Origin: Halioglobus sp.
Lineage (GTDB): Bacteria > Pseudomonadota > Gammaproteobacteria > Pseudomonadales > Halieaceae
DNA: 48,484 nt
Direction of reading: 5' to 3'
Assembly (NCBI GenBank): GCA_020443325.1
Contig: JAGRIK010000339.1
Span: 1 to 48,484, forward strand
In this document: in pieces, positions 14,581 to 42,025 of the stretch
Position numbering within the stretch: position 1 is the stretch's first letter
Layout of the letters: each line of letters opens with the position of its first letter
The notes under the pieces: generated by a model
What the model was told of the DNA's origin: nothing
Database searches by the model: none
What the model saw: the letters and a program-made list of their open reading frames with translations, nothing else
Position numbers and translations under genes: made by a program

Positions 14581-14700
14581 AGGCTCAATTCCTTGTAGGT
14601 CACGCATCTGGTGGCGCAGGAGGCGGGAAAACACCGCAATGTGATCAGGGTGCCAGTGTGTCGTGCTTTCCCCCAACGGGCAATAGTTTCAATCGTCACG

Positions 14701-14729: not shown

Positions 14730-14758
14730 GCGCGCCTGATCAATGAGAGGAATGTACC

Positions 14759-25124: not shown

Positions 25125-26933
25125 CTATCGTGTCGCGAGCCAGTTGCGCCAACCGCCGTAACCCGTGATGTTGTGGGCGCCTGCCAGGCCATACCCTTCG
25201 CAGATAAAGCCGCTGAGCCAGCTGCCGTCAGCCATTTCCACTTTTCCTATCCCCAGCGGTGCGGGAATACCGGCGACAAAGCTGCCAAAGTTGCCGTGTG
25301 GCAGGGACCACACCTCCACTTCAATCGCGGTACCGTCGACGTCGTCCCTCACCATCGCGGGGCGCTTGCCGTCCGGCAGTGCGTAGAGCTGGTAGCGGGG
25401 TGCGCTGCGGGTCTCTGACACCAACTGCCCGCCGCGCTCGGTGAGTTGCCAGTTCAGCGGTTGGCCCTGCAGATGGGCGCCGCACACAACCACTTTGATT
25501 CGCTCTGGCACGGCGGCCGTTGTGCCATCCGTTGCTGGCGGTGCCGGATGACCGGTTGCGCCCAGTGGTAGCTGGCATGCACGGTGCAACAGACCGGCGT
25601 AACTCAGTAAGCGGATGTCATCGAACGCCCCGGAGAACAGGGTCACTCCCCACGGTACGCCGCAGTCTGTAAAGCCCACGGGGATGGCCGTGGCGCTGTA
25701 GTCGAGCAGGTTGACGAAGTTGGTGTAGGTGCCCAGCAGCGAGTTGTTCACAATCGGCTGCTCGGCCATTTCTGCGCGCGTGTAGAATCGGGGGCAGGTG
25801 GGTGTGACGATAAAGTCCAGATCCTGCAGCAGTGCATCGCACTGTCGTTTCAATGCGGCCAACCGGTACTGCGCGGCAAAAGCGTCCGCTGCGCTCTTGC
25901 CCTCGGCTGTGGCGATGATGGCGTTGATCACCGGCAGCATGGACGCGCTGTCGACATCGCGTGTGGCTAACCAGCGCTCGGCTACCCACGGTCCCTCGTA
26001 CAGTAATCTGGCCGTCTCCAGAAATGGCTCGAACGCCACGGAGACCGCTTCTCCACCCAGCGCCTCCAGGCGCTTCACACTGGCGTCGAACAGTGCCCGG
26101 GTTTCAGCGTCTCTCTGGAAGTCCGGCTGCGCCGGCACGCCGAAGCGAAAGTGCCCGGCGCCGGCCGTCTCGAAATAGCGCTGCCGATTGTAGAATGTGT
26201 TCGGTCTCGCGTAGGGATCCTGCGGGTCATAACTGGCTGCGATGTCCAGCAGTTGCGCCGCGTCATCGCAGCTGAGCGCAAATATACTCACGCAATCCAG
26301 TGTTCGGCACGCGGGCACTACCCCGCGTGTGCTCAGCAACCCCCTGGTAGGCTTGTGACCGACAAGGTTGTTCAGCACAGCGGGAACGCGGCCGGACCCC
26401 GCCGTGTCGGTACCCAGCGCAAAACTGACCTGTCCCAGCGCCGTGGCTATCGCCGAACCGGCGCTGCTGCCGCCGGAAATGTAGTCGGGGTTGAAACTGT
26501 TCTTGCCCTCACCGTAAGGCGAGCGCGTGCCTACCAGGCCAGTTGCAAACTGGTCGAGATTGGTCTTTCCCAGCGGCACTGCTCCGGCGGCGATCAGGGC
26601 GCTGACGACGGCGGCACTTTCCCCGGGGGTGTACGCAAAATCGGGGCAGGCGGCGGTGGTCGGAATTCCCGCCAGGTCGATGTTGTCCTTGATGGCAAAG
26701 GGCACGCCATACAGCGGTAAACTCTCGGGGCGTTTCCCCTCCAGTGCGGACAGGTAGGGCTCCAGCTGGGCGTCGCTTAACAGTGAGATCCAGGCGTTGT
26801 ACCCCGACTGGCGCCGGGCTTGTGCTGTGAGTTGGCCAATCAGTTCGCGGGGTGTGAAATCCCCCTGCAAATAGGCTGATCTCAATGCCTGTAGGCCAAG
26901 ATTGTGGACAGAATCCGTGATCGCGTCGTTCAT
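25125..26933 (-). CDS. atzF: Allophanate hydrolase
   Basis: Amidase-signature enzyme that hydrolyses allophanate to two ammonia and two CO2, the last step of guanidine (or urea) use by the carboxylase route. It has 602 residues in two domains. The N-terminal amidase shows the Lys-Ser-Ser triad region: VPFAIKDNIDLAGIPTTAACP, GGSSAGSAIATALG and GTDTAGSGRVPA. The C-terminal domain (from about residue 470: IKVVVCGAHLQGQPLNWQLT) matches the AtzF C-terminal decarboxylating domain. The start ATG 26933 follows the carboxylase stop by 3 bases, with GGAG upstream, so the two are co-translated. It is the last gene of the operon. Confidence 0.95.
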   Translation of the reverse strand: MNDAITDSVHNLGLQALRSAYLQGDFTPRELIGQLTAQARRQSGYNAWISLLSDAQLEPYLSALEGKRPESLPLYGVPFAIKDNIDLAGIPTTAACPDFAYTPGESAAVVSALIAAGAVPLGKTNLDQFATGLVGTRSPYGEGKNSFNPDYISGGSSAGSAIATALGQVSFALGTDTAGSGRVPAVLNNLVGHKPTRGLLSTRGVVPACRTLDCVSIFALSCDDAAQLLDIAASYDPQDPYARPNTFYNRQRYFETAGAGHFRFGVPAQPDFQRDAETRALFDASVKRLEALGGEAVSVAFEPFLETARLLYEGPWVAERWLATRDVDSASMLPVINAIIATAEGKSAADAFAAQYRLAALKRQCDALLQDLDFIVTPTCPRFYTRAEMAEQPIVNNSLLGTYTNFVNLLDYSATAIPVGFTDCGVPWGVTLFSGAFDDIRLLSYAGLLHRACQLPLGATGHPAPPATDGTTAAVPERIKVVVCGAHLQGQPLNWQLTERGGQLVSETRSAPRYQLYALPDGKRPAMVRDDVDGTAIEVEVWSLPHGNFGSFVAGIPAPLGIGKVEMADGSWLSGFICEGYGLAGAHNITGYGGWRNWLATR

Positions 26934-26936
26934 TAC

Positions 26937-29900
26937 TTACCGTTCTCCTTCACTTGATTGTTCATCTGCCGCTGCGTCCAGCCACAGCAGGGTTTGTCCT
27001 GCGGTGACGGGCTGACCCTGCTGCCTGATGATCTTTGTGGCAGTGCCCGATTGTGCGGCGCGGATGTCAATTTCCATCTTCATCGATTCGAGTATCATGA
27101 CAGTCTGGCCCGCCTCGACGCTCTCACCTTCCTCTATGAGTACCTTCCAGACGCTACCCGATACGGGGCTGTCGACGGCGCTGATACCCTCGGGTAACTC
27201 TGCCTCGTCGGCCTCTGGTGCAGCGCTTTCGTGCTGCGCGTAGGTGAATTGCCCGTCGCGTTTCCACTGCGCCAGTTCGTTGGCAAAGGCAGCCTGGCGC
27301 CCTCGCGTAAAATTCGAGATATCATCGTTGTTCTGCAGCAGGAACTGCTGGTACTCCGCAAGATTGAAATGTGTCTCTTCAATCTTCAGCGGATAGTTAC
27401 CCAATGGAAAATCCCGCCGGATTTTTTTTAGTTCCTCGGCGTCCACAGGATAGAAGCGAATCTGGTCGAAGAATCGCAGCAGCCAGGGCTGTGTGAAAGC
27501 TTCCGTCTGGCGGTAGCGATTCCACATCTGCAGGGTGCGACCGACAAACTGGTAGCCGCCAGGCCCCTCCATGCCGTACACACACATATAGGCGCCACCG
27601 ATGCCCACGGAGTTTTCCGCTGTCCATGTACGCGCAGGGTTGTATTTTGTGGTGACCAGCCGATGCCGGGGGTCCAGCGGTGTGGCCACCGGCGCGCCCA
27701 GGTACACGTCGCCCAGGCCCATCACCAGATAGGACGCAGAAAAGACAATATCTTTCACAGCGTCGATATCCGCCAGGCCATTTATGCGGCGGATGAACTC
27801 GAGATTGCTGGGGCACCAAGGCGCATCCGGGCGGACCGACTGCATATACTTTTCGATCGCCAGACGACAGGCTTCGTCATCCCAACTCAATGGCAGGTGA
27901 ACGATGCGTGAGGGGACGGAGACGTCGTTGCCGTGAAGCAACGCGCGCGCCGCGAGATCGACATGGTGCAACAGTTCACCCATGGTGATACGTTGCGAGT
28001 CGTAGTGAATTTGCAGGGAGCGAATGCCCGGTGTCAGTTCGTGTATCCCGGGAAGGGGGTTTGCCTCGAACCACAGCATCAGCGCGTGCACCTTGAAGCG
28101 GCGCTCGATGTCCAGTTCCTGTGGCCCCAGCTCAATCAGCAGGAAGTGATCGCCGGCGAGCCGGCAGATCACCTCGTCACCGGGGATGGCAACGCGGTGA
28201 ACAATGGGGGAGGACGGCTGAACCGGGGTGCTGACAGTCGGGACGGGCGCTGCGAGTTGCTCGATACTTGCGAGTTGGGCTGCCTCCAGTGCGACCGCCT
28301 GCTCGTAACTCACGGGCTCAAAGCGCAGGGTGGCTCCCGCTTGCAATTGGCCGAGCTTCCACAGGTCGGCGGTGATGACTGTAGCCGGGCAGACGAATCC
28401 TCCCAGCGAGGGCCCGTCGGGGCCGAGAATGACCGGCATATCCCCGGTAAAATCCACGGTGCCAAAGGCGTAGGCATTGTCGTGGATGTTGGAGGGGTGC
28501 AGGCCTGCTTCGCCCCCCGTTTCCCTTGCCCAAACGGGCTTTGGGCCTTTCAGGCGGACGCCGGTGCGGCTCGAGTTGTAGTGCACTTCCCACGGCGTAG
28601 CGAAAAACGTGGTGATGTCGTCATCCGTAAAAAAATCCGGCGCCCCGTGTGGCCCGTAGATGACGCGCAGCGTCCAGCTGTTGCCAATCTCCGGCCGCAG
28701 GGATTGCGGCACTTCCCGTGCGTCGATTGCTGGCGTATTGCCGTGCTTCGGCAGGTGCAGCACGTCTGCCACGCGCAGGGCGCGCCCCACGTGACCGCCG
28801 AACTGGCCCAGCGTAAACGTCGATTTGGAGCCGAGGTAATCCGGGCACTGGAAACCGCCGGCCACTGCGAGATAGGCGCGGGCGCCGTCACCGCTGACCT
28901 TGCCGAGCTTGAGAACCTGCCCGGCGTATACTGTGATTGCCGTAAACAGGGGCAGCATTTCCCCGTCCACACTCGCTTCGATGGTCGCGCCTGTGAGCGC
29001 AATATGTGTGGTGCGATTCAAGAGAAGTGTCGGGCCATTGAGTGTGATTTCCAGCGCCGCCGCATCCGGGTCGTTGTCCAGCAGGCGATTGGCGAGTCGA
29101 AATGACAGGGAATCCATCGGGCCGGAGGGCGGCACACCCACATGCCAGAGGCCTCTTCGTCCCGGATAATCCTGCAAGGTGGTTTGTGTGCCGGCCGCCA
29201 GCACCTGCACCGTGTTCGGAGAAAAAACAAACTCGGCGAGACTACGCGTCAACAGTTCACCGCGTTGGCAGGTGCTTCCAGCCAGCACTGCCTGGAGATA
29301 CTCCAGATTGGTCTCGATGCCGTAGATTTCACTGGCCGCCAGTGCTTGTGACAGTTGTTCCAGGGCCGCTGCGCGGTCGACGCCGTGTACGATAACCTTG
29401 GCGAGCATGGGGTCGAACAGCGCCGGTACCTCTATGCCGGATTCAATCCAGTGATCAATGCGCAGTCCTTGCGCCTGTGGCCAGCTAACGTGGGACAGCA
29501 GGCCTGCCGAGGGGCGGAAATCCTGCGCCGGGTCTTCCGCGTAAACGCGCACCTGGATAGCGTGGCCGCGTGGAGAAAGTGTCGCCTTCAGGGTGTCCAG
29601 GTCTGCCAGTTCACCGGCTGCCAGCTGCAGCATCCAGTCCACCACATCAACCCCCCACACTTCCTCACTGACGCCGTGCTCAACCTGTAGCCGGGTGTTT
29701 ACCTCAAGAAAATAAAATTGCTGACTGTCCGCGTCATAGATGAACTCAACGGTACCGGCGTTGCGATAATTGACGGAGGCCATCAGTCGTTCTGCGGTCG
29801 CATGCAGTTGCTGCCTGGCGGGTTCGGGGAGGTTGGGCGCTGGCGTTTCCTCTATGACTTTCTGGTTGCGACGCTGGGCAGAGCAATCGCGCTCACCCAG

Positions 29901-30566
29901 TGAGAGTGTTTTGCCGCGGCCATCGCCGAAGATCTGTACTTCGATGTGCCGGGCATTGGCAATGTACTTTTCCAGAAAAACACCGTCGTTGGAAAAGTAG
30001 TTCGCGCCCAGGCGCTTGACGCTATCCCAGGCGGTGCGCAGGACTTCGACATCGTTGCAAACCTGCATGCCGATCCCGCCACCCCCCGCAGTGCTTTTCA
30101 GCATCACCGGATAGCCCACGTCTGCGGCCCAGGCAACGGCATCGTCGAGTGTTGTGAGCAGGGGTGAGCCCGGTACCAGTGGGACGCCCGCCCGCTCGGC
30201 GGCATCGCGTGCCTGGTGTTTCAGGCCGAACAGTTCCATTTGCTCCGTTGTCGGGCCGATGAACACCAGCCCCTGCGCTTCGCAGCGCGCGACAAATTCG
30301 GTGTTCTCGCTCAGGAAGCCATAGCCCGGATGAATCGCCTGGGCGCCTGAATCCTTTGCGGCCTGCAGCACCTTATCGATGTCCAGGTAGGTTTCGGCGG
30401 CAGAGCCGGCCCCGAGGCTTATCGCGCTGTCAGCGCGTTGCACATGCAGCGAGTGCGCATCTGCCTCGTTGTACACGGCGACTGACTCTATCCCCAGTCG
30501 TTGCAGTGTGCGAATGATTCGTGTGGCGATCGCGCCGCGATTCGCGATGAGTACCTTACTAAACAT
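26937..30566 (-). CDS. Guanidine/urea carboxylase (biotin-dependent)
   Basis: An ATP- and biotin-dependent carboxylase of 1209 residues. The biotin carboxylase domain comes first ([23 protein letters not shown]-grasp [41 protein letters not shown]). Next are the AHS2/KipA-like ([20 protein letters not shown]) and AHS1/KipI-like ([16 protein letters not shown]) carboxyltransferase parts, and last the biotin carrier with the biotinyl lysine in LESMKMEID (about Lys1163). ATG 30566 is preferred over TTG 30587 because GGAAGAG precedes it. Members were named urea carboxylase, but those encoded with both DUF1989 subunits and a guanidine-I riboswitch, as here, mainly carboxylate guanidine to carboxyguanidine. 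The true substrate preference is inferred from context. Confidence 0.93.
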
Positions 30567-30592
30567 AATGTTCTCTTCCTGATCCAATGCGC

Positions 30593-31231
30593 TTAATTGA
30601 AGATCAGTACTTCAATCGGTGTGGGGTTGTAGGCGTTGCAGGGATTGTTGAGTTGCGGACAGTTGGATATCAGCACGATGACATCCATGCTGGCGGTTAG
30701 CTCGACATATTTTCCCGCGTCGCTGATGCCATCCGCAAAGCTCAGGCCACCCTCGGGTGTAATCGGCACATTCATAAAGAAATTGATGTTGTGCGTGATA
30801 TCGCGCTTGCTCATCCCGAACTCCTCGTGCTCGGCGACAGCGAGTAACCACGAGTCGCGACAGGCGTGCATACAGCGTTTGTCCAGCGCATAGCGCACCG
30901 TATTGGACTCCGTCGCGCAGGCACCGCCCAGCGTGTCGTGGCGCCCGCAGGTGTCGGCGACGATCTCCAGCATCGGATTACCCTCGTTGCTGAACAGCAC
31001 GGAGCCTGCGGTGAGATACACATTGCCCTGTTCACGAATAGTATCGATCGCACTGTAGCGTTCGCTGGTGTCATGTTCGCTGTAGAACAGGGTGTCGGCG
31101 GCCTGGTTGCCCTCGAGGTCCAGTATGCGAATGGTCTGGCCCTTCTTCATCGGGCGCAGATAGTAATCTCCCGCCCCTACCACCTCGCGATACACCGCCT
31201 GTTCGGCTTGCAATACACTTTCCTTAATCAT
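30593..31231 (-). CDS. Carboxyguanidine deiminase subunit (DUF1989; urea carboxylase-associated protein 2)
   Basis: A 212-residue DUF1989 protein. [24 protein letters not shown], then [27 protein letters not shown]-type metal or catalytic region around [20 protein letters not shown], and [21 protein letters not shown] match UAAP2. In the characterised pathway two DUF1989 subunits form a heteromer (CgdAB) that deiminates carboxyguanidine to allophanate and ammonia. Start 31231 is chosen over ATG 31246 because GGAG lies 7 bases upstream. It sits between the other subunit and the carboxylase in the same transcript. Confidence 0.93.
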
Positions 31232-31264
31232 GGTATGTCTCCGCAATCAGTTGTCCGACGTCCC

Positions 31265-31987
31265 TCATGTGCGCCCCAGTGTGTAGAGTTCGGTATTCAA
31301 GAAACCGCGCTGGTTTTCGGCGCAGTGGTTTCTACAGATATCGTCCTCCGTCACCTCACAGCTTGTGCGAATCTCGAAACTGACAGGTTTCCGGGGGTAT
31401 TCCGATGCCGGGTTCAGGGGATGAGGACAGGTATGGAGTACGACCAGGGTATCCATTTCGAAGCGCAGGTCGATATAGCGCCCGGCTTGCGCTGCATCGC
31501 TATCGAATGTCAGTGCACCGGTGTCATCCACAGATACCTTGCTGAACAGGTTGAGATTGGCCGCGAGATCCTTTTTCCCCAGCCCATATTTGGCCACCTC
31601 CACCAGGAAAGAGTCGTAGCCGTTCAGTTGCCATTCATTGCGATACTGCTGGTAATTCCGCTCGCCCCATTTCTCTGCGACTATTTTCTTCGTGGTGTTC
31701 CCGCACACCGTGTCATGCCAGCCGGCAGAATCCTCGACGATGGAGCAGAACACGCGGCCCATGTCGGAATAGAGACAGTTGCCACGGGTTAATTTGAAGG
31801 TGTGCTGGCACTTGAGGGTATCCGGTGCGTTGTATCGCTCCAGATAGTTATAGGGATTGTAAAACAGCATGCCGACGTTGGCGCCGCCTGCGATGTCCGT
31901 CAGTCTCAGGGTCAATCCCTGCCTGATGAACAGTGACCAGTGGCTGCCGCCGGGTATCGTGTCACGATAATGAACAGAGTTGCTCAT
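31265..31987 (-). CDS. Carboxyguanidine deiminase subunit (DUF1989; urea carboxylase-associated protein 1)
   Basis: A 240-residue DUF1989 protein, paralogous to the next gene: MSNSVHYRDTIPGGSHWSLFIRQG, LRLTDIAGGANVGMLFYNPYNYLERYNAPDTLK, and the cysteine/histidine region DSAGWHDTVCGNTTKK. It ends CRNHCAENQRGFLNTELYTLGRT, with extra cysteines. It is the second subunit of carboxyguanidine deiminase. ATG 31987 is preferred because GGAG lies 7 bases upstream; in-frame upstream codons to 32059 add an unlike leader. Its start overlaps the stop of an upstream 64-codon ORF (ATGA). Confidence 0.93.
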   Translation of the reverse strand: MSNSVHYRDTIPGGSHWSLFIRQGLTLRLTDIAGGANVGMLFYNPYNYLERYNAPDTLKCQHTFKLTRGNCLYSDMGRVFCSIVEDSAGWHDTVCGNTTKKIVAEKWGERNYQQYRNEWQLNGYDSFLVEVAKYGLGKKDLAANLNLFSKVSVDDTGALTFDSDAAQAGRYIDLRFEMDTLVVLHTCPHPLNPASEYPRKPVSFEIRTSCEVTEDDICRNHCAENQRGFLNTELYTLGRT

Positions 31988-32178
31988 AGCTTGTCTCCAC
32001 CTGTTTGGATTGTTTGCCATTGGTAGCACCGCTCGCCCAGGCCAGTCGCCGGGACGCAAGGCGCCGCCAGATACACTGGCCGCGCGCGGCTTGGGGTTAG
32101 CAGATAGGGATTGAGTCCGTCAGGACGCCTGGACCACAGCATCACACTGCACCGCGGGCCGTCCCGATTGAGATACAC
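31984..32178 (-). CDS. Possible 64-residue ORF inside the guanidine operon
   Basis: An ORF from GTG 32178 filling the 233-base gap between the ABC ATPase and the first DUF1989 gene. The stop TGA overlaps the next ATG as ATGA, an arrangement that usually marks coupled real genes. The product (VYLNRDGPRCSVMLWSRRPD..., ending WQTIQTGGDKL) contains three cysteines and is not recognised. The words LVYLNRDG and PVYLAAPC weakly recall an alpha/beta hydrolase family. The frame stays open back to the ATPase stop, so the start is unsure; CAGGA lies upstream of GTG 32178. It could instead be a decayed gene or a leader. Confidence 0.35.
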   Translation of the reverse strand: MYLNRDGPRCSVMLWSRRPDGLNPYLLTPSRARPVYLAAPCVPATGLGERCYQWQTIQTGGDKL

Positions 32179-32220
32179 CAGCCAGGGCGTCCTGGTGGTG
32201 GGTGAAAGAAATAAACGCCA

Positions 32221-33129
32221 TCAATCCATGACCTCGACATCATCGCCAACATGGGTCATGCGAATCATGTGCAATTCGTCGGTGTCATCCTCCGCGGTTG
32301 GCGGGTGAATCAGTTCTTCCAGGCGTTTTTTTGTCGCGAGAAACTCGGGTGAAATCACCTGGTCGGCGGTTCTTGGCCTGGGTACCGGGACTTCGATCAA
32401 CTCTTCCACCTCACCCGGGTTTGCCTTCAGTACCAGGATGCGATCGGCAAGGTAGATAGCCTCGTCGAGGTCGTGAGTGATAAACAGCACGGTGATATCG
32501 ATATTGCGCCAGATCTCGATCAGGTTTGCCTGCATCTTGCTGCGCGTTTGCGCATCCAGCGCGCCAAATGGCTCATCCATCAACAGTATTCTGGGCTTGT
32601 TCGCCAGTGCCCTGGCGATAGCGACCCTTTGTTTCATGCCGCCGGATAACTGATGGGGATAGGCGTCTGCGAATTTTTCCAGGCCAACGAGATCGATCCA
32701 GTTCAGCGCTTCACTTTCTGCGGTGGCTTTGGTGTGCCCCTGCATCTCGAGGCCGAACATCACATTGTGTTTCACGCTTAGCCAGGGAAACAGGGTGTAA
32801 CCCTGGAAGACCATGCCGCGGTCGGGGCCGGGCTCAAAGACCGGTTTATTGTCCAGCAGCACTTCGCCGCTGCTGGGCGACTCCAGGCCGGCGAGAATCC
32901 TGATCAGCGTCGATTTTCCACAACCCGAGGGGCCGATGACGCAGACGAATTCACGCCTGTGTGTTTTGAAGTTGATGTCCCTGAGGGCGGTTACCAGCCC
33001 CTGCTGTGAGTTGAATTGCTTGCCGAGGTGTTTGACCTCGAGTATCACTTCACGCTGCTTCAATTTGTCAAACCGGGCGCTCACCGCCTCGCTTTGATCC
33101 AGGTAACTGGGGAGTTCTATCGCTGTCAT
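32221..33129 (-). CDS. ABC transporter ATPase of the guanidine operon
   Basis: A 302-residue cytoplasmic ATPase of the nitrate/taurine (SsuB/TauB/NrtD-like) group. Walker [10 protein letters not shown] is at residues 66-74, the Q-loop in [12 protein letters not shown], the signature [15 protein letters not shown], Walker [17 protein letters not shown] and the H-loop in [18 protein letters not shown]. It energises uptake with the permease and binding protein just upstream; the start lies 3 bases after the permease stop, with AAGGG upstream. Transporters of this kind co-occur with urea-carboxylase-region genes and most likely import guanidine or a guanidine compound. Confidence 0.93.
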
Positions 33130-33132
33130 TGT

Positions 33133-34101
33133 TTAACCCTTCACCTGTTCTTTTTCCCAGGGGAATAAACGCTTGCCCAGCCTGGCCAACACAATATCCG
33201 ATACCACACCAATGATGCCGATCATGATGATGGCGGCGTACACGTTGTCGAAGTTTTTGTAGCGCGCCTGCTGGGTGATAAACCAGGTAATGCCCGAACT
33301 GGTGCCGATCAGTTCGGCGACAATCAGGTACGTCCAGGCCCATCCCAACAGGATTCGCTGGTCGCGGTACAGGTCGGGCAGGATGCCCGGTATCACGACC
33401 CGGAACAGGAGCTGGAATTTTTTCGCGCCCAGCGTTAACGCCGCTTCCAGTAACGCTACATCCAGCTTGCGTGTGGTATTGGCGATGATCAGAACCTGTT
33501 GAAAGAAAGTCCCGATAAAGATAATCGCAATCTTGGGGCCATCGTGAATACCCAGAATTGCGACAGCCAGTGCGCCGAAAGCCGGCGCGGGCAGATAGCG
33601 GAAAAATTCAATGAAGGGTTCCTGCAGCCTGGAGATCGCGACATAGGTACCGCACAGCACACCAAGGGGAACCCCGATTAGCGATGACAGCGTGAAGCCC
33701 CAGAAAATCACCTGGATGCTGTGCCACAGGCTTTCGTGTAGCCACTGTTCACTGCTGCGTGTCGGTTCGGTGGTGAACGCGGTATAAAACGCAGTCGCCA
33801 CTTCATGGGGTGCCGGAAGATAGATAGGGTTAGCCCTGAAACCCTCTGGCGGCGCCGTTTTCTGCTCGGCTGCCAGAAGCTGTTGATCAAGGAACACCTG
33901 CTGCTCAACCAGCATGCCTGGCTTGAGCCAGGTGATGGAGCCGGGCTCCACAATTTCAATTTTGGGGTGCCACAAAAACGGCACATAGCTGACCAGTGAC
34001 CAAACCAGAATCGGCAACAGGAACGACAACAGGGTCAGGGTCGTAACCTGTTTTCTGGTCAGGGCCTGCCGTACAGCAAACCAGCGCGTCGATTGTGACA
34101 T
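33133..34101 (-). CDS. ABC transporter permease of the guanidine operon
   Basis: A 322-residue inner-membrane permease of the BPD_transp_1 type. The first segment is TLTLLSFLLPILVWSLVSYVPFLW. A long periplasmic stretch follows (about residues 46-105, including EAEQKT-like and ANPIYLPAPHEVATAFYTAF), larger than in most SsuC/TauC relatives. The EAA-like coupling loop is in LLEAALTLGAKKFQLLFRVVIPGILPDLY. It begins 64 bases after the binding protein gene, with a hairpin between, and its stop is 3 bases from the ATPase start. It forms the channel for the solute carried by the binding protein. Confidence 0.92.
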   Translation of the reverse strand: MSQSTRWFAVRQALTRKQVTTLTLLSFLLPILVWSLVSYVPFLWHPKIEIVEPGSITWLKPGMLVEQQVFLDQQLLAAEQKTAPPEGFRANPIYLPAPHEVATAFYTAFTTEPTRSSEQWLHESLWHSIQVIFWGFTLSSLIGVPLGVLCGTYVAISRLQEPFIEFFRYLPAPAFGALAVAILGIHDGPKIAIIFIGTFFQQVLIIANTTRKLDVALLEAALTLGAKKFQLLFRVVIPGILPDLYRDQRILLGWAWTYLIVAELIGTSSGITWFITQQARYKNFDNVYAAIIMIGIIGVVSDIVLARLGKRLFPWEKEQVKG

Positions 34102-34132
34102 GTGAGAACCCTTATACAGTCGCAGTCTGTCT

Positions 34133-34150
34133 GCCCCGCTTGCGCGGGGC
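34133..34150 (-). promoter_or_regulatory. Intercistronic hairpin between binding protein and permease genes
   Basis: A 7-base perfect GC-rich stem, GCCCCGC (34133-34139) and GCGGGGC (34144-34150), with a 4-base loop. No T run follows on the minus strand. Such stems commonly shield the 3' end of binding-protein mRNA and lower expression of the membrane parts. The role is inferred. Confidence 0.55.
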
Positions 34151-34165
34151 TGCAGTCAGGTATGC

Positions 34166-35158
34166 CTACATACCCAGTGTGATGGAAGGGTCTATATAAG
34201 AGTCGATGGCCTGCGGATCCGCGTACACCTCGTATTTGACATTGAAGTCGTCCGAGATTTTGGTTGAGCCGTACAGTGACTGAATGCCTTCTCCCTGCTG
34301 CATCACAGCTTGCGCCTCTTCAAGGCTGAGGATTTTTGTGCCATCCAGGATGGCCTTGTACTGCTCTGCGGGAAGCCCGACCCTGGCGGCCATGATAGAC
34401 AGCGCGTCGGCCTGGGTGTCCTCATCGTAGATATAATCCACCACCCTGTACCAGACTTTGGCCACTTTCTCCCAGTCTGCCTTGCGGGTGGCCAGCGATG
34501 CGGGGCTGACGGCCAGCACATCGTAGATCAGGCCCGGAGCGTTTTTCGATGTAGCCACAGCCGTTGACCCGGGCACCTGGGCCAACGCCTGACCTGAGTT
34601 GGGCTGCCAGGCAACGATGGCATCGACATCACCCGATGCCAGCACCTGGGGAGTTTCATTGGTGGGAACATTGACCAACTTGACGTCGGTTTCGGTGAGG
34701 CCTGCAGCTTCCAGCGCGTTCAGCAACAGCAAGTGGCCGACGAAGCCCACTTCGACACCGATGGTTTTACCCTTGAGGTCCGCGACCGATTTGATACCGG
34801 AGCGGGCCACGATCATGTCATTGCCGTTGCTGAAATCGTTGACGAGAATCATCACGCCCTGCGCTCCCGAGGAACCGGTGACCAGTGTGTCACCATTGGT
34901 CATGGTAACGGCGTCGAGTTTGCCTGCGGCAAAGGCGTCCATCGAGGCCACGTAATCAAACCACTCAAACTCGACGTCGACCCCCGCTTCCTCGAACCAG
35001 TCTTTTTCGATGGCGACTTCCCAGGCAACCCAGCCGGGCCAGTCACTGTAGCCAATTTTCAGGGGCTCAGCGGCCTGCGCGGCAAGGCTGAATACGGCGG
35101 CGGCAAGTGTTGCCGCAACGGCAGCGAGCATTTTTTTAATGGGTGTAACGTTGTTCAT
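34166..35158 (-). CDS. ABC transporter substrate-binding protein (urea carboxylase-region type)
   Basis: A 330-residue periplasmic binding protein of the NMT1/SsuA-like fold with a signal peptide ([22 protein letters not shown]). Following it are [56 protein letters not shown], and [26 protein letters not shown], as in the family annotated as the urea-carboxylase-region binding protein. In guanidine operons it likely binds guanidine or a guanidinium compound; that is inference. It is the first gene of the operon, right behind the riboswitch. GGAGGA precedes ATG 35158, part of which may be masked by a local ACTC/GAGT pairing. Confidence 0.93.
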
Positions 35159-35215
35159 GAGACTCCTCCAAAGAGTTGCACAGTGGCTGGTGCACGCGAG
35201 ATCCCGCTTTCGCGT

Positions 35216-35321
35216 TCTCCCGGGCTTTTATCCCTCCGTGTAACCCCCTGGTCACAGGAGGTCGATAACTCTCGGACCAGCCATCGCTGCAGCGATCTTG
35301 CGCAGCGACCGGAACCCTAGA
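35216..35321 (-). ncRNA. Guanidine-I (ykkC) riboswitch
   Basis: On the minus strand the conserved ykkC words appear in order: CTAGGGTTCCG (35320-35310), then a variable stem (TCGCTGC with GCAGCGA), CTGGTCCGAGAG (35280-35269), a second variable stem (ACCTCCTG with CAGGGGGT, loop TGAC), ACACGG, and GGATAAAAGCCCGGGAGA ending at 35216. This is the full guanidine-I consensus. It lies 57 bases before the binding-protein start. Binding of guanidine switches expression on in known examples. Downstream, ACGCGA/TCGCGT can form a further hairpin without a T run, so control of translation is likelier than termination. Confidence 0.95.
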
Positions 35322-35389
35322 TATCTATTGGTTTTGCGTACTTGTCCCTGTTAAAACGACAGGGGATCTCCGGCACTGTAGACAGGAAA

Positions 35390-35406
35390 AGCAAACATTA
35401 TGCCAA
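35390..35406 (-). promoter_or_regulatory. Sigma-54 promoter of the guanidine operon
   Basis: On the minus strand TTGGCATAATGTTTGCT reads across 35406-35390: TGGCAT with GG at -25/-24, and TTGC with GC at -13/-12, the exact spacing of the sigma-54 consensus TGGCAC-N5-TTGC. Predicted transcription start is about 35379, some 58 bases ahead of the riboswitch. Confidence 0.8.
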
Positions 35407-35478
35407 CACACCCGAAACCCACGTTCTAAAGGGACGTTAGCGGATCACATTGCGCACGATGCCTGAATACAGCGCGGG

Positions 35479-35495
35479 GGCACCGTAACGACGCA
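35479..35495. promoter_or_regulatory. Second, weaker NtrC-like site of the guanidine operon
   Basis: GGCACCGTAACGACGCA reads as an imperfect TGCACC-N5-GGTGCA palindrome with one good half. Its centre is about 108 bases upstream of the predicted start, a usual enhancer distance. Confidence 0.45.
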
Positions 35496-35501
35496 GGATA
35501 T

Positions 35502-35518
35502 TGCACCACAGTAGTGCA
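35502..35518. promoter_or_regulatory. NtrC-like enhancer site of the guanidine operon
   Basis: TGCACCACAGTAGTGCA matches the NtrC palindrome TGCACC-N5-GGTGCA at 11 of 12 defined positions. Its centre is about 131 bases upstream of the predicted sigma-54 start, just beyond the comM stop codon. Confidence 0.8.
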
Positions 35519-35534
35519 GTCGTGTCGGCGCGCT

Positions 35535-37037
35535 TCAGGCGCGATAGCCCAGCGCTTCGCTGATGTGGGGGAGGCCAATCCTCTCACAGCTTTCCAGATC
35601 TGCAATGGTGCGGGCCACCCGCAGGGTCCGGTGCAGCCCTCTGCCAGACAGGCGCATTTGCGTGGCGGCTGCTTCAAGCGCCTTTTTTTCTATGCTCCCA
35701 AGTAAGCAGGTACTTGCTAACGCATCCGGCGAAAGCCGTGCGTTGGGCACCCCCTGGCGTTGTTCCTGGCGTGCGCGGCTGCGGTTCACCCTGGCCTGCA
35801 CCGTCGCGGAGTCCTCGCCGGTATAACGGGGTGTGAGCAAGTCACCCGGCGGCAGTCGATTGACCTGTACATGCAGGTCAATACGGTCCAGCAGGGGGCC
35901 TGATACGCGCGACCGATAGCGCTGGATCTGGTCGGGTGTGCAACGACAGGGGTGCTCCGGATCGCCAAAATAGCCGCATGGGCAGGGATTCATTGCGGCG
36001 ACCAACTGGAACCTTGCTGGATAGGTGACCTGCTGGCTGGCGCGGGAGAGCGTGATTTCGCCGGATTCCATCGGTTCTCGCAGGGATTCCAGGCAGTGGC
36101 GGTTGAACTCCGGCAGTTCATCCAGGAAGAGTACGCCACTGTGTGCAAGTGATATCTCGCCGGGTCGCGGCCGACTGCCACCGCCGACAAGCGCCGCTGC
36201 CGTGGCGCTGTGATGGGGGCTGCGAAACGGCCGCTGGAAGCAGAGTCCTGTCCTGGCCGAACCGCCTTCCGACAAGCAGCCGTGGACATCGCGCAGCGCT
36301 AGGCCGGCCAGGACATCCTCTGCACTCGGCGGCGGGAGTATGCCCGGCAAGCGGCTGGCCAGCAGGGTTTTTCCGGTGCCGGGTGGCCCCCAGAGCAGCA
36401 GGTTGTGCCCGCCGCTGGCAGCAATTTCCAGTGCACGCCGCGCACCCTCCTGGCCAACAACATCCCGCAGGTCGGGGTGGGTGGGGTTGGTGGTGCACAC
36501 GTCGGCACACGCTGCGGTAATGGGTTCACTACCGTTGAGGTGGGCACACAGTGTCAGGATATCGGGCGCGGCAATGACGCCGGCGCCAGGCACGTAGGCC
36601 GCCAGTGCAGCGCTGCTGGTGGCGACCACCAGATGCCGCCCGGCCCATTTTGCAGCTGCCGCCGCAGCCACCACGCCGGGAACGGGTCGAAGGCTGCCAT
36701 CGAGCGCCAGCTCTCCCAGGAACTCGTGCCGTTGCAGTGCGTCCGCAGGCAATTGTCCCGAGGCGCTGAGAATGCCCAGGGCAATGGAGAGGTCGAAGCG
36801 ACCCCCTGCCTTGGGCAGGTCTGCCGGTGCGAGGTTGACAGTGATGCGCCTGTCGGGAAAGGTAAAATGCGAGTTGAGGATTGCGCAGCGAACCCTGTCC
36901 TTACTCTCGCGCACGGCTGTCTCCGGCAACCCGACGATATGAAAGGCAGGCAACCCATTGGATAAATGAGTCTCCACCTGCACCAGAGGGGCTTCTATGC
37001 CCGCCAGCGCCCTGCTGTAAACGACCGACAGTTCCAT
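35535..37037 (-). CDS. comM: ComM/YifB family Mg-chelatase-like AAA+ helicase
   Basis: A 500-residue AAA+ ATPase. ComM is a hexameric helicase that drives branch migration during natural transformation. The N-terminal ChlI-like domain reads MELSVVYSRALAGIEAPLVQVE...LPAFHIVGLPETAVRESKDRV. Then come the Walker A (LLWGPPGTGKTLLASRLPGILPP), Walker B (GVLFLDELPEFNR), a zinc-ribbon-like MNPCPCGYFGDPEHPCRC, and the C-terminal lid RLSGRGLHRTLRVARTIADLE. Start 37037 has GGAAGAG upstream; an in-frame ATG at 37124 adds 29 unrelated residues overlapping ubiK's surroundings. It lies 55 bases after ubiK on the same strand. Together with the pilus genes at the right it hints at natural competence. Confidence 0.95.
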   Translation of the reverse strand: MELSVVYSRALAGIEAPLVQVETHLSNGLPAFHIVGLPETAVRESKDRVRCAILNSHFTFPDRRITVNLAPADLPKAGGRFDLSIALGILSASGQLPADALQRHEFLGELALDGSLRPVPGVVAAAAAAKWAGRHLVVATSSAALAAYVPGAGVIAAPDILTLCAHLNGSEPITAACADVCTTNPTHPDLRDVVGQEGARRALEIAASGGHNLLLWGPPGTGKTLLASRLPGILPPPSAEDVLAGLALRDVHGCLSEGGSARTGLCFQRPFRSPHHSATAAALVGGGSRPRPGEISLAHSGVLFLDELPEFNRHCLESLREPMESGEITLSRASQQVTYPARFQLVAAMNPCPCGYFGDPEHPCRCTPDQIQRYRSRVSGPLLDRIDLHVQVNRLPPGDLLTPRYTGEDSATVQARVNRSRARQEQRQGVPNARLSPDALASTCLLGSIEKKALEAAATQMRLSGRGLHRTLRVARTIADLESCERIGLPHISEALGYRA

Positions 37038-37432: not shown

Positions 37433-37449
37433 CGCACGAATACAGTGCA
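37433..37449. promoter_or_regulatory. NtrC-like site upstream of the porin-glnK-amtB operon (distal)
   Basis: CGCACGAATACAGTGCA fits TGCACC-N5-GGTGCA at 9 of 12 defined positions. Its centre is about 131 bases upstream of the predicted sigma-54 start. Confidence 0.6.
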
Positions 37450-37450
37450 A

Positions 37451-37467
37451 TGCACCAATATAGAGCA
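37451..37467. promoter_or_regulatory. NtrC-like site upstream of the porin-glnK-amtB operon (proximal)
   Basis: TGCACCAATATAGAGCA has a perfect left half (TGCACC) and a partial right half (AGAGCA). Its centre is about 113 bases upstream of the predicted start and 18 bases from the distal site, consistent with two NtrC dimers bound side by side. Confidence 0.65.
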
Positions 37468-37544
37468 ATAAAACTGCGCATCTCAACCCCGCAAAGTGCG
37501 AGAAAATATAGGTATGTTATTGAAAAATAATAAAAATAACTACT

Positions 37545-37561
37545 TTGGCACAGACCCTGCT
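37545..37561 (+). promoter_or_regulatory. Sigma-54 promoter of the porin-glnK-amtB operon
   Basis: TTGGCACAGACCCTGCT: TGGCAC (37546-37551) and CTGC (37557-37560), with the GG and GC pairs at the exact -24/-12 spacing. Predicted start about 37572, leaving a 96-base leader. The rest of the 311-base gap between ubiK and the porin gene (37357-37667) is AT-rich and shows no gene. Confidence 0.85.
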
Positions 37562-37667
37562 ATCTCACAGCGACAGATCGGTAATGCGCACGAAATGCGT
37601 CCGCAGCAATAAATTGACGCTTTGCAGAGTCTGTATTCTGACCTTACACAAACAGGAGTAGAGAAAC

Positions 37668-38402
37668 ATGTTAAACAAGAAACTGGTATCCACAGCGGTA
37701 GGTACAGCCCTTCTGGCAGGCATCGGAGCAACATCCGTACAGGCGTTTGACCTGAGTGCGAATGTTGCTCTGGTCTCTGATTACCGCTTCCGCGGTATTA
37801 CACAAACCGATACTAACGCGGCGATACAGGGCGGCTTTGACGCGTCCTTTGAGCCTGGCTTCTACATTGGCACCTGGGCTTCATCTGTCGATTTTGGCGA
37901 TGTCGACGATGGCAGTGGTAGTTATGGCACGATGGAAATCGACTACTACGCCGGATGGTCCGGCCCGATTGGCGATACAGATTTCGGTATCGATGTGGGC
38001 TACTACTACTACCAGTACCCCGGTGACACTGTCGATCCCAAGGGTGACTACGAGGAGTTCAATGTCACGGGATCCTGGAAAGATCTGTCCATCGGCGTGA
38101 CCTACTCCGATGACTTTTACGCCAAGACGGGCGAGTACTGGTACTACGCCGGTGACTACAGCCTGACCTTTGCGGAAGACTTTTCCGTGGCATTCCACGC
38201 CGGCTACAACGATTTCGAGGATGTGGGCTTCTTCGCCACGACCGAAGACAGCTACACCGATTACTCGATCACGCTCGGCTACACCTTCAAAGGCGTTGAT
38301 TTCTCCGTGGCCTGGGTTGGCACAGACCTGGATGACGATGATTGCTGGAACACAAACTACTGCGACGATACTGCAGTCTTTTCCATCAGCAAGAGCCTGT
38401 AA
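37668..38402 (+). CDS. TorF family putative outer-membrane porin
   Basis: A 244-residue beta-barrel protein with a signal peptide (LVSTAVGTALLAGIGATSVQA). The mature start FDLSANVALVSDYRFRGITQTDTNAAIQGGFDASFEPGFYIGTWAS is the hallmark of the TorF/TIGR02001 family. Alternating aromatic strands (YYAGWSGP, GYYYYQYPGD, WYYAGDYSLTF) continue to the C-terminus. It is unusually acidic and tyrosine-rich. The family often precedes glnK-amtB in proteobacteria, so a role in letting small nitrogen compounds across the outer membrane is plausible but unproven. AGGAG lies upstream of ATG 37668. First gene of the NtrC/sigma-54 unit. Confidence 0.9.
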   Translation: MLNKKLVSTAVGTALLAGIGATSVQAFDLSANVALVSDYRFRGITQTDTNAAIQGGFDASFEPGFYIGTWASSVDFGDVDDGSGSYGTMEIDYYAGWSGPIGDTDFGIDVGYYYYQYPGDTVDPKGDYEEFNVTGSWKDLSIGVTYSDDFYAKTGEYWYYAGDYSLTFAEDFSVAFHAGYNDFEDVGFFATTEDSYTDYSITLGYTFKGVDFSVAWVGTDLDDDDCWNTNYCDDTAVFSISKSL

Positions 38403-38804
<402 letters not shown>

Positions 38805-38838
38805 ATTCCCAATCGACTGTTAGTAGAGAGTTATTCCC

Positions 38839-40092
38839 ATGGAAAACAATATTTTTGAACTACAGTACGCCCTGGACACGTTTTACTTCCTGATCTGCGG
38901 TGCACTGGTAATGTGGATGGCAGCGGGCTTCGCGATGCTCGAAGCTGGCCTCGTCCGCTCCAAGAACACGACTGAGATTCTGCTCAAGAATATCTCGTTG
39001 TATGCCGTGGCATGTACGATGTACATGATCTGTGGCTATTCGATCATGTATGGTGGCGATGAGTTTACGCTATTTCTGCAGGGTATAGTCGGCGATGGCG
39101 TAGAGGGAGCAGCAGAGCCTGCGACGTACGCGCCTTCGGCAGATTTCTTCTTCCAGGTGGTGTTCGTGGCGACCGCGATGTCCATCGTCTCCGGCGCAGT
39201 GGCCGAACGGATGAAGTTGTGGGCGTTCCTGGCCTTTGCGATTGTGATGACGGGCTTTATCTATCCAATGGAAGGCAGCTGGACCTGGGGTGGCGAAGCC
39301 GTTTTCGGTATGTACACGCTGGGCGACCTCGGATTCTCGGACTTCGCCGGCTCAGGCATTGTACACATGGCGGGTGCCGCTGCGGCACTGGCAGGTGTAT
39401 TGCTGCTGGGTGCACGCAAAGGCAAGTACGGCGCGGATGGTTCCGTCAGGCCGATTCCCGGCGCCAATCTGCCGCTGGCAACACTGGGTACCTTCGTTCT
39501 CTGGTTGGGTTGGTTCGGTTTCAACGGCGGTTCAGTGCTGGCGACAGCCAGTGTTGAAAGCGCGAATTCCGTGGCGATTGTGTTCATGAACACTAACGCG
39601 GCGGCCGCAGGTGGACTGATTGCTGCGCTGATTACTGCGCGAATGATGTTCGGTAAAGCCGACCTCACGATGGCCCTCAACGGCGCCCTGGCGGGACTGG
39701 TCGCTATCACAGCCGAGCCATCCACGCCTTCCGCACTGCAGGCCACATTGTTTGGTGCTATCGGCGGTGTTCTGGTGGTGTTCGCGATTGTTACGCTCGA
39801 CAAGTTGAAGATTGACGATCCTGTCGGTGCGATCTCTGTGCACGGTGTCGTTGGACTCCTGGGCCTGCTCCTGGTACCTGTTACCAACGGTGACTCGTCC
39901 TTCAGTGGCCAGCTGATCGGTGCACTGACGATCTTTGTCTGGGTCTTTGTCACCAGCCTTATTGTCTGGGGAATCCTCAAGGCCGTCATGGGTATCCGTG
40001 TCAGCGAGCAAGAGGAATACGAGGGCGTGGACATGGCCGAGTGCGGCATGGAAGCCTACCCCGAGTTCGTCGGCGCCAGCGGCAGTCATTAA
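38839..40092 (+). CDS. amtB: Ammonium transporter
   Basis: A 417-residue inner-membrane ammonium channel of the Amt/Rh family with about eleven transmembrane segments. It begins with the membrane helix FYFLICGALVMWMAAGFAMLEAGLVRSKNT, then ...GFIYPMEGSWTWGG and the pore motif FAGSGIVHMAGAAAALAG (pore His), LGTFVLWLGWFGFNGGS, and the second His in AISVHGVVGLLG. There is no cleaved signal peptide of the E. coli type; the N-terminus MENNIFELQYALDTF is short. The C-terminal tail (EEYEGVDMAECGMEAYPEF) binds GlnK. A strong terminator follows. Confidence 0.97.
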   Translation: MENNIFELQYALDTFYFLICGALVMWMAAGFAMLEAGLVRSKNTTEILLKNISLYAVACTMYMICGYSIMYGGDEFTLFLQGIVGDGVEGAAEPATYAPSADFFFQVVFVATAMSIVSGAVAERMKLWAFLAFAIVMTGFIYPMEGSWTWGGEAVFGMYTLGDLGFSDFAGSGIVHMAGAAAALAGVLLLGARKGKYGADGSVRPIPGANLPLATLGTFVLWLGWFGFNGGSVLATASVESANSVAIVFMNTNAAAAGGLIAALITARMMFGKADLTMALNGALAGLVAITAEPSTPSALQATLFGAIGGVLVVFAIVTLDKLKIDDPVGAISVHGVVGLLGLLLVPVTNGDSSFSGQLIGALTIFVWVFVTSLIVWGILKAVMGIRVSEQEEYEGVDMAECGMEAYPEFVGASGSH

Positions 40093-40303: not shown

Positions 40304-40464
40304 TCCATTCACATCACTGCACCGATGTCTCGCAGGGTACTGCGGGGCTCGGCAGTCGAATCCGGGATATAACCAGAACGTATTCCGCGATATCAATAGA
40401 TATCATGGCGCGAGGTGGTTGACTGCCCGCGCCCGCTTGAAATAGTCTGTGACAGTAAGTCAGT
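40304..40464. other. Intergenic stretch upstream of the pilus-operon riboswitch
   Basis: From the SHOCT mini-ORF to the aptamer (the gap to the first pilin gene is 440 bases in all). No gene is seen. It contains the promoter candidate listed next; the remainder shows nothing recognisable. Confidence 0.5.
40419..40448 (+). promoter_or_regulatory. Candidate sigma-70 promoter of the minor-pilin operon
   Basis: TTGACT (40419-40424) and TAGTCT (40443-40448) with an 18-base spacer. The -35 is strong and the -10 weak. A start near 40455 would place the aptamer at the very 5' end of the transcript, which supports it. Confidence 0.4.
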
Positions 40465-40556
40465 TCTGAAAAAGGCAAACCCACTGAAAAGTGGGGACGC
40501 AAAGCAACCGGTCTAAGGGGCGAAAGCCCGATGATAGCGGAGCCGCCGGAATGGAT
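40465..40556 (+). ncRNA. Cyclic di-GMP-I (GEMM-I) riboswitch aptamer
   Basis: The class I consensus is present in order: GGCAAACC (40474-40481), P2 arm CACT with GAAA loop and AGTG, GGGACGCAAAGC, CCGGTCTAA, P3 arm GGGC with GAAA tetraloop and GCCC, GATGATAGCGG, then GCCGCCGG. The spacing equals the well-studied Vibrio Vc2 aptamer. It senses c-di-GMP and sits about 190 bases ahead of the first pilin gene, so it should control the minor-pilin operon. Confidence 0.95.
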
Positions 40557-40660: not shown

Positions 40661-40744
40661 CAACCGCTTCTCTGCCGCGCCTTTTCAGTTGTGCAAATGG
40701 TGGTGTTCGCTATAGCCCACCGTAAGGCGAGGTAGAAGCGGTTG
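40661..40744 (+). promoter_or_regulatory. Likely expression platform of the c-di-GMP riboswitch
   Basis: CAACCGCTTCT (40661-40671) is the perfect complement of AGAAGCGGTTG (40734-40744), which spans the bases between the Shine-Dalgarno (GAGG, 40729-40732) and the first base of the GTG start. Pairing would block initiation. The aptamer itself carries CAACCG (40505-40510), which could compete for the same GCGGTTG. No terminator is visible, so control of translation is likelier. Confidence 0.5.
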
Positions 40745-41319
40745 TGACGTTAGCCAGGGACAGTGGTTTTACCCTTATCGAAGCGATGGTGACGCTTGCG
40801 GTGGTAGCCGTGGTGCTGTCCGCAGGCGTTCCGTCCTTTAGCGCAATGATCAAGAATAATCGCCTGGCAACGGAAAGCCACGCACTGCGCACTGTGCTCA
40901 GTGCGGCCCGATTCGAGGCACAGGCACAACGCTCGGCTGTAACTGTATGCCGTAGCACAAACGCCATCGACTGTAGCACTGGTGACTGGGGTGCAGGTTA
41001 TATGGCTTTCATCGATCTCGATGGCGACGCACAACTCGATGATGGCGAGCAGTTGCTTGAGTATCGGGTGCAGAACACCCAGGGGATAGGGGTCAGCTAC
41101 AGCGAGGCTGGTGGCATCCTGCGTTTTGACAGCAGTGGCAATGCGGCTGAAAGTAACGGCACTTTCACTTTCTGCGACGATCGCGGTGCCGTGGCAGCGC
41201 GCGGGCTGGTCGTTTCCGTCGTTGGCCGGGTCAGGCCCGCAGTGATGTCAGAGCGCGAAGGCTCGACCCACATTGTACAGGATCACGATGGCAATGATGT
41301 TACCTGCAATGTTGTCTGA
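40744..41319 (+). CDS. fimT: GspH/FimT-type minor pseudopilin (first copy)
   Basis: A 191-residue type IV prepilin-like protein. The short leader is cleaved at Gly8/Phe9 in DSGFTLIEAMVTLAVVAVVLSAGVPSF, with Glu5 of the mature protein present. The GspH domain follows (LRTVLSAARFEAQAQRSAVTVCRS, GAGYMAFIDLDGD) and ends with a FTFCDDRG block and a cysteine-bearing tail NDVTCNVV. It is thought to help start pilus assembly and to bind DNA in competence. The GTG start follows GAGG. First gene of the pil operon, behind the c-di-GMP riboswitch. A paralogue follows. Confidence 0.88.
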   Translation: MTLARDSGFTLIEAMVTLAVVAVVLSAGVPSFSAMIKNNRLATESHALRTVLSAARFEAQAQRSAVTVCRSTNAIDCSTGDWGAGYMAFIDLDGDAQLDDGEQLLEYRVQNTQGIGVSYSEAGGILRFDSSGNAAESNGTFTFCDDRGAVAARGLVVSVVGRVRPAVMSEREGSTHIVQDHDGNDVTCNVV

Positions 41320-41401
41320 TCGTAGTTCTGGCCGCGTGACCGGGCATGAGGGTCGCGTTGATTCTATAGCGAAGCGGGTATGGCCGCTGGGAGGCTGTTA
41401 A

Positions 41402-42025
41402 ATGGCACATTGCGAATACAGCATGCGAGTCGTCGCTTGTGAGAATACATACTCCAATCGAGCGAGTGGCTTCTCAATCATTGAGGTAATGATCGTACTG
41501 GTCATTGCCTCAATTCTGGTGGCGGCGGCCGGCCCGGGGTTTCAGGATCTCATGGGCAATAATCGCGCGCTTTCCGAAGTGTACACCTTGCGTGCCACGC
41601 TCAACCATGCGCGATCGGAGGCGTTGGCGCGCCGCGCGCCTGTGGTGGTCTGTCCCACCCGGGATGGTCTCGCCTGCGCGGACACCGATGACTGGTCCAC
41701 CGGGTATATGGTTTTCGTCGACACCGACAACAATAACATCGCAGACCAGAATGACCCTGACGAAGAGATTATCCAGTTCGAAACGGGGCCGCGTTCAGTA
41801 GACCTGGCGTTTAATAACGGGAACAGGCGCGTGCGCTTCGGTGCCCAGGGCGTTGCGCTGGGCTTCGAGGGAACCTTTACTTTTTGTGATGAACGCGGCG
41901 TAAAAAATGCCCGTGGCCTCATCATAAATCCTGTAGGTACCCTGGCTGCTGCAACCGATACGGATGATCCGGAAGATTTGATAGTGGATGATGCAGGGGG
42001 CGACAATGTTACCTGCGCCGAGTAA
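41402..42025 (+). CDS. GspH/FimT-type minor pseudopilin (second copy)
   Basis: A 207-residue prepilin with a longer leader (23 residues if ATG 41402 is used; ATG 41423 gives 16) and cleavage before FSIIEVMIVLVIASILVAAAGPGF. The GspH domain matches the first copy closely: LRATLNHARSEALARRAPVVVCPTRDG, DDWSTGYMVFVDTDNN, GTFTFCDERG and a tail GGDNVTCAE. The two genes are tandem paralogues. It starts 82 bases after the first and overlaps pilV by 20 bases. A role in pilus priming is inferred. Confidence 0.88.
   Translation: MAHCEYSMRVVACENTYSNRASGFSIIEVMIVLVIASILVAAAGPGFQDLMGNNRALSEVYTLRATLNHARSEALARRAPVVVCPTRDGLACADTDDWSTGYMVFVDTDNNNIADQNDPDEEIIQFETGPRSVDLAFNNGNRRVRFGAQGVALGFEGTFTFCDERGVKNARGLIINPVGTLAAATDTDDPEDLIVDDAGGDNVTCAE

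Follow-up and report, generated by a model that had tools for sequence, protein, structure and literature searches.

What conditions switch on the guanidine operon on the minus strand of contig JAGRIK010000339.1 of Halioglobus sp.? The operon lies at positions 25125–35158 of the window, the whole stretch of 48,484 nucleotides (nt) analysed here, and encodes an ABC importer, two DUF1989 proteins, a urea-type carboxylase and the allophanate hydrolase AtzF. An earlier note on this DNA had placed it under apparent double control by sigma-54/NtrC and a Guanidine-I (ykkC) riboswitch. The promoter and leader were examined using consensus, profile and covariance searches, and related loci were compared. 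The arrangement makes it probable that an NtrC-activated sigma-54 promoter and a Guanidine-I riboswitch jointly control the operon, and from it we infer active elements, AND logic and use of guanidine for growth.

Promoter and leader of the operon

Read along the minus strand, the upstream region contains an NtrC palindrome, a weak second NtrC-like site, a sigma-54 element, the Guanidine-I aptamer, a ribosome site and the ATG at 35158. A covariance search identified the aptamer as a match to RF00442 at 35215–35331 (minus strand) with a score of 91.6 bits against a gathering threshold of 63 (E 2.4e-15), covering positions 1–107 of the 107 in the model with two non-standard pairs marked. The full ykkC consensus that the earlier note had placed at 35216–35321, and for which it had proposed this search, therefore stands, 28 bits above the family threshold. 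This was the single RF00442 match in the genome, an assembly of 365 contigs that is about 90% complete.

The sigma-54 –24/–12 element TTGGCATAATGTTTGCT (35406–35390, minus strand) has GG-N10-GC spacing and the pattern TGGCA...TTGC, and is near-identical in the closest relative, L032. By an approximate matrix it scored 17.9, higher than any other site on either strand of the window. The promoter at 35390–35406 had rightly been called well spaced. Three sites in the window scored at least 15, compared to an expectation of 0.65 per 48 kb of Markov sequence. The consensus GGcacg-N4-ttGC is also given in PMC5491218. The predicted transcription start, taken as 12 nt past the –12 C, lies at about 35379, and a simple consensus scan of 35130–35700 found no sigma-70-like promoter.

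The two NtrC-like palindromes that had been reported about 131 and 108 nt upstream of the start fared differently. The first, at 35502–35518 (minus-strand letters TGCACTACTGTGGTGCA), matches both halves of TGCAC-N7-GTGCA perfectly, is the sole site of the window without a mismatch and is conserved in L032. Its centre precedes the predicted start by about 131 nt, which falls inside the range of about 100–150 nt given for NtrC sites (PMC5491218). The second, at 35479–35495 and centred about 108 nt upstream, proved weak, with mismatches at 3 of 10 positions; both of its half-sites are retained in L032. Profile searches of the genome gave one match to rpoN, with 497.7 bits against a cut-off of 277.35, and nine matches above 220 bits to the NtrC profile, of which just one passed the cut-off (ntrC, 762.7 bits against 558.6).

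The expression platform of a Guanidine-I riboswitch is usually an intrinsic terminator. The leader of the window has neither a terminator-like hairpin followed by a T-run nor a clear ribosome-site trap, so its control may be translational or Rho-linked. A hairpin that overlaps the 3' end of the aptamer (35198–35220, minus strand; GAGA paired with TCTC, GAAA loop) has no U-tract and is a possible platform. Among the relatives described below, a test for a contiguous stem gave at least 5 pairs in 180 of 222 cases, yet also in 60% of Markov sequence, a modest excess that does not decide the matter, and a five-T run occurred within 60 nt downstream of the aptamer in 19 of 167. In thinned relatives, where kinship was removed by thinning only, the motif CCTC accompanied the aptamer end GGGAGG in 51 of 74 cases and the end GGGAGA in 31 of 146, while TCTC was equally common with both ends (25/74 and 49/146 respectively). 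The association of GGGAGG with CCTC is a hint of a helix downstream of the aptamer.

Recurrence of the sigma-54 and Guanidine-I pairing

Searches for RF00442 covered 390 genomes of the order, 369 of the class and 398 of the phylum, among which 111, 29 and 43 respectively had a match. Three subgroups were searched as well (30/150, 32/150 and 13/99 genomes with a match), and all of these sets overlap. Places below the cut-off were left out (three in the order search and three in the phylum search), and further places from the two 150-genome subgroups were counted only if they lay on a stretch already sampled. The sample was extended by 80 loci of importer-protein relatives. Removal of near-duplicates, defined by an identical aptamer and 100 nt upstream, reduced 313 aptamers to 284 unique aptamers placed overall. 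Aptamers were placed by motif, which did not locate those of L302–L306 and L343. In 16 stretches checked by covariance, 18 motif-placed aptamers agreed with the Rfam matches, and L350 had none by either method. A sigma-54 element was counted as present at a score of at least 12 within 350 nt upstream of the aptamer.

In a first set of 158 unique upstream regions, 129 had a sigma-54 element, which in 119 of them lay at 55–110 nt before the aptamer core CTAGGG, compared to 6/158 on the reverse strand, 1/158 in the stretch from –700 to –350 and 3.35/158 in Markov sequence. Exporter-type Guanidine-I loci were considered as an internal negative control and set aside, none being recognised among the 284 unique aptamers sampled. 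The larger set gave 240 of 282 aptamers with at least 150 nt upstream (summed over gene classes), and the thinned set, nearly all from Pseudomonadota, gave 192 of 224. An enumeration of gapped dinucleotides that used no matrix returned pieces of TGGCA-N-TTGC as its strongest signals. The spacing between the –12 C and CTAGGG was typical of each group, with medians of 71 nt in the order, 24 nt in the order of G787, 51 nt in the G1031 family and 65 nt in the G940 family. NtrC palindromes with at most two mismatches occurred at 111 of 191 promoters against 16.6 expected from Markov sequence, an almost sevenfold enrichment. On nine plasmid stretches outside the 284 (L348–L356), a sigma-54 element scoring at least 12 was found for 8 of 10 motif-placed aptamers.

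The co-occurrence of sigma-54 elements and Guanidine-I aptamers thus extends across several groups of Pseudomonadota. With real elements in the window, this recurrence, and both rpoN and ntrC in the genome, the double control that had been read from a single locus has good support at the sequence level. Since the same pairing is found in many related bacteria, it suggests that guanidine serves them as an emergency nitrogen food.

Several small groups of loci differ from this pattern or extend it. Three loci of family f262 (L274, L279 and L280) carry Guanidine-I without a sigma-54 element, with scores of 3.5, 1.7 and 2.4. There are lineages in which NtrC works without sigma-54, and these loci would fit such a lineage. 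In L228, L231, L236, L244 and L267 Guanidine-I precedes ureohydrolase-like genes, assigned to PF00491 in L231 and by eye in the others, and the respective sigma-54 scores are 16.1, 18.6, 11.5, 17.4 and 3.2; guanidinase-type operons may share the nitrogen gate. In L031 and L119 the aptamer precedes an exported-protein-like gene, and the sigma-54 scores are only 0.8 and 9.1.

Position of the riboswitch relative to importer and catabolic genes

Upstream regions of at least 250 nt were available for 80 importer genes, that of the window included; L053 was left out for its short upstream region. Guanidine-I lay within 450 nt before the importer in 17 of the 80, and the 63 without it there included some that carry it elsewhere in the locus. 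A sigma-54 element preceded the importer in 15 of the 17 genes with the aptamer and in 53 of the 63 without it, the nearest background for these counts being the 3.35/158 given above. The –12 C and the gene match were separated by a median of 261 nt with the aptamer and 65 nt without, indicating that the aptamer sits between the promoter and the gene. Mapped onto the importer tree, the presence or absence of the riboswitch requires five changes, at least three of them forced by well-supported branches, and the four nearest relatives of the window's importer also carry Guanidine-I.

Catabolic genes lay on the same stretch as a readable importer upstream region in 59 loci. Guanidine-I was found before the importer in 15 of these, only before the catabolic block in 14 and nowhere in 30. 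The sigma-54 element was present at the importer in all 14 loci of the second kind and in 53 of the 59 overall. Guanidine-II was found in 8 of 17 importer-kin loci without Guanidine-I, that is in 8 of the 15 scanned from the 30, the two further scanned loci falling outside the 30. These arrangements suggest that uptake can be gated by nitrogen alone with breakdown doubly gated, or that everything can be doubly gated, as the window appears to be. Of the two layers, nitrogen control appears to be the constant one, with the riboswitch as a movable second lock. For the Pseudomonadota as a group we regard it as rather likely that NtrC/sigma-54 is the conserved core of guanidine assimilation, with riboswitches as movable locks whose position would set the logic of uptake and breakdown.

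A further element missed by the earlier note lies at 32155–32198 (minus strand), in the 233-nt gap between the ATPase and UAAP1 genes. It resembles Guanidine-II, with a score of 24.4 bits to RF01068, and its first loop reads ACGC rather than ACGR, the C being common to the window and L032. The corresponding gap in L034, a locus of Candidatus Litorirhabdus singularis IMCC14734, carries a full Guanidine-II of 43 bits. Among the other 13 riboswitch-bearing kin, seven have the canonical pair at this position and six have none by the pattern used. As a single RNA the element of the window folds no better than shuffles (z –0.50). It may have decayed or changed in specificity.

Operon genes and substrate

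The first three genes of the operon encode the substrate-binding protein (34166–35158), permease (33133–34101) and ATPase (32221–33129) of an ABC importer. The substrate-binding protein falls among the NMT1 families; its matches to SsuA-like and to the urea-type family TIGR03427 are both below cut-off, the latter with 147.6 bits against 333.9. The carboxyguanidine deiminase subunits UAAP1 (31265–31987, TIGR03425, 335.3 bits) and UAAP2 (30593–31231, TIGR03424, 334.8 bits), both DUF1989, are followed by the guanidine (urea-type) carboxylase (26937–30566, TIGR02712, 1824.6 bits) and AtzF (25125–26933, TIGR02713, 760.6 bits). All genes are on the minus strand, and the four catabolic proteins score above their family cut-offs. 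The gene content proposed for the transcript, namely transport, both DUF1989 subunits, carboxylase and AtzF, agrees with these matches.

The aspartate of the carboxylase motif VDFTGD aligns with Asn1330 of the urea amidolyase of Kluyveromyces lactis, which we take to be the position meant by the rule that separates the two substrates. Under that rule Asp marks guanidine enzymes and Asn marks urea enzymes, according to a review (PMC12186494). Asp was present in 61 of 61 motif matches of the scanned loci, a set that consists of kin operons and so contains no Asn control. The residue is consistent with a guanidine carboxylase.

Comparison with characterized systems

Vreelandella boliviensis grows on guanidine, and the proteins of its operon are abundant on guanidine and mostly undetected on ammonium (PMC12508155). 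Like that of the window, this operon contains an importer, the subunits CgdAB, carboxylase and AtzF, with Guanidine-I at its start and Guanidine-II inside it. It differs in possessing mgdH/mgdL, both of which the window operon lacks by gene content, and in its inner Guanidine-II, which in the window is the element below threshold. The main text of PMC12508155 contains no word beginning with 'ntr', and sigma-54 was not searched there. The data fit double control, and a comparison of ammonium with guanidine cannot separate the two inputs; the present finding predicts that published tests of this kind mix two signals.

In Burkholderia cenocepacia H111 a cluster of the urea-carboxylase type, I35_7283–7286, has lowered expression in an ntrC mutant when nitrogen is limiting, the change being sixfold (–6.0) for urea carboxylase (PMC5491218). 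The list also contains a urea-carboxylase-related periplasmic protein and a urea-carboxylase-related aminomethyltransferase, and the cluster is filed under urea use. The words 'riboswitch' and 'guanidine' are absent from the main text of that paper. A different strain of B. cenocepacia has, on a replicon of 1.1 Mb, two Guanidine-I aptamers in divergent orientation (76.7 and 76.6 bits). Each is accompanied by a sigma-54 element (scores 16.1 and 16.8), and next to them lie UAAP1 and a carboxylase that carries the Asp motif. An annotated counterpart in B. stagnalis displays the gene order. The divergent layout is unlike that of the window operon. By gene content, the H111 cluster is the counterpart of this Guanidine-I cluster, and the ntrC mutant supports NtrC control of a guanidine cluster of this type. 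Genes filed under urea in the NtrC regulon would then be re-read as a guanidine cluster.

A survey of sigma-54 regulons (PMC12316311) predicted control of 102 COG3665 genes, of which 59% were called urea carboxylase; its main text does not contain 'guanidine', and 'riboswitch' occurs only in a reference. Each of the components is known, and their joining, as well as the constancy of the nitrogen layer, was not found in the open literature searched.

Proposed mechanism and alternative explanations

Under nitrogen shortage, phosphorylated NtrC would fire the sigma-54 promoter for the whole operon of guanidine import and degradation. The transcript would start about 48 nt ahead of the Guanidine-I aptamer, and most transcripts would be unproductive unless guanidine were bound. 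The Guanidine-II-like element before the catabolic genes could provide a second check for guanidine. The combined output would approximate nitrogen shortage AND guanidine; the gate may be a strict AND, and the organism may grow on guanidine. Across the Pseudomonadota the nitrogen layer would be nearly constant, with a movable riboswitch gating the importer as well, as in the window, or only the enzymes. If this is true, most Guanidine-I riboswitches of Pseudomonadota would form the RNA part of an AND gate whose other input is nitrogen. Whether guanidine is mainly poison or food has been debated since the discovery of its riboswitches, and the occurrence in several groups of nitrogen-shortage promoters in front of guanidine import and degradation genes argues for food.

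A number of observations weigh against this explanation. The sigma-54 matrix is an approximation built from a consensus. The element is absent at threshold from 32 of the 224 thinned aptamers, scores just 9.6 at the Thioclava plasmid locus, and in one of its two B. stagnalis copies stands at an unusual 219 nt. The sigma-54 counts for the plasmid loci, the importer genes and the 59 loci have no matched shuffle of their own. About 260 NtrC-like sites with at most three mismatches are expected per window, so the second site alone is not above chance, and no site with at most two mismatches was present at 80 of the 191 thinned promoters. On the side of the riboswitch, the leader lacks a terminator and a clear ribosome-site trap, as described above, and the Guanidine-II-like element fails its cut-off of 32 bits. 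Since guanidine is not mentioned in the main text of PMC5491218, the H111 experiment was presumably performed without added guanidine; its data suggest some transcript under that condition, and the riboswitch may leak. If the importer itself requires guanidine, a leak or another entry route would be needed to start the loop.

The promoters without a good NtrC site, together with the nine genome matches to the NtrC profile of which one passes the cut-off, would also be expected if the sigma-54 element were used by another enhancer-binding protein, in which case the first input would not be nitrogen status. The perfect palindrome of the window, the enrichment of such sites over Markov sequence, the similar layout of the neighbouring glnK–amtB promoter and the ntrC mutant of H111 render this unlikely. 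It is equally improbable that the aptamer is a relic and that the operon is under nitrogen control only, as in relatives free of Guanidine-I. The lack of a recognised platform, the degenerate look of the Guanidine-II-like element and the sigma-54 elements at 53 of the 63 importer genes that have no aptamer immediately in front would agree with a relic, whereas the full-length match at 91.6 bits, with its two non-standard pairs, the Guanidine-I aptamers of the four nearest importer relatives and the pairing of GGGAGG with CCTC argue for a retained function. Least probable is that the operon serves to detoxify guanidine and that its nitrogen control is incidental. Although Guanidine-I also governs guanidine exporters (PMC12186494), this operon combines an importer with a promoter of the NtrC type, tblastn classified the genes behind 272 of the 284 unique aptamers as importer or degradation genes, and an SMR exporter was recognised behind none of the remaining 12, mostly judged by eye (L231 and L250 by Pfam).

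Other features of the window and related loci

A second promoter of the NtrC/sigma-54 type lies outside the operon at 37433–37561 (plus strand), with NtrC sites at 37433 and 37451, each with one mismatch, and a sigma-54 element at 37545. This element is the second-best of the window, and by internal comparison its geometry resembles that of the guanidine promoter. Together with the genes that it precedes, Gcw_chp, glnK and amtB, it spans 37433–40092 (plus strand). A third sigma-54-like site, TTGGTATGAGGTTTGCT, is found at 10964 (plus strand) with a score of 15.9.

A c-di-GMP-I riboswitch (87.2 bits) at 40464–40550 (plus strand) precedes type IV pilin-like genes in 40744–43663. A 1297-residue open reading frame at 44216–48109, also behind this riboswitch, had no NCBIfam match at E 0.001. 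L032 also carries a c-di-GMP-I riboswitch, at 4227–4313 (minus strand).

A fatty-acid-desaturase-like membrane protein (PF00487) was found in 15 of the 80 importer-kin loci (L032 at 13016–14841; L040, L045, L047, L050, L086 and others). It is absent from the window. The genome gave a single weak match (26% identity), and the viral contigs searched gave none. In the guanidine riboswitch literature, where checked, 'desaturase' means NapI. A xylose-isomerase-like TIM-barrel protein (PF01261 in L032) occurs in 20 of the 80 loci and adjoins the desaturase-like gene in six. By analogy with MgdH/MgdL, the desaturase-like protein may act on alkylguanidines by hydroxylation and cleavage. Its gene has a Guanidine-II-like pair in the preceding 400 nt in 9 of 15 cases, and in G628 (L250) this gene stands directly behind a Guanidine-I aptamer with a sigma-54 element.

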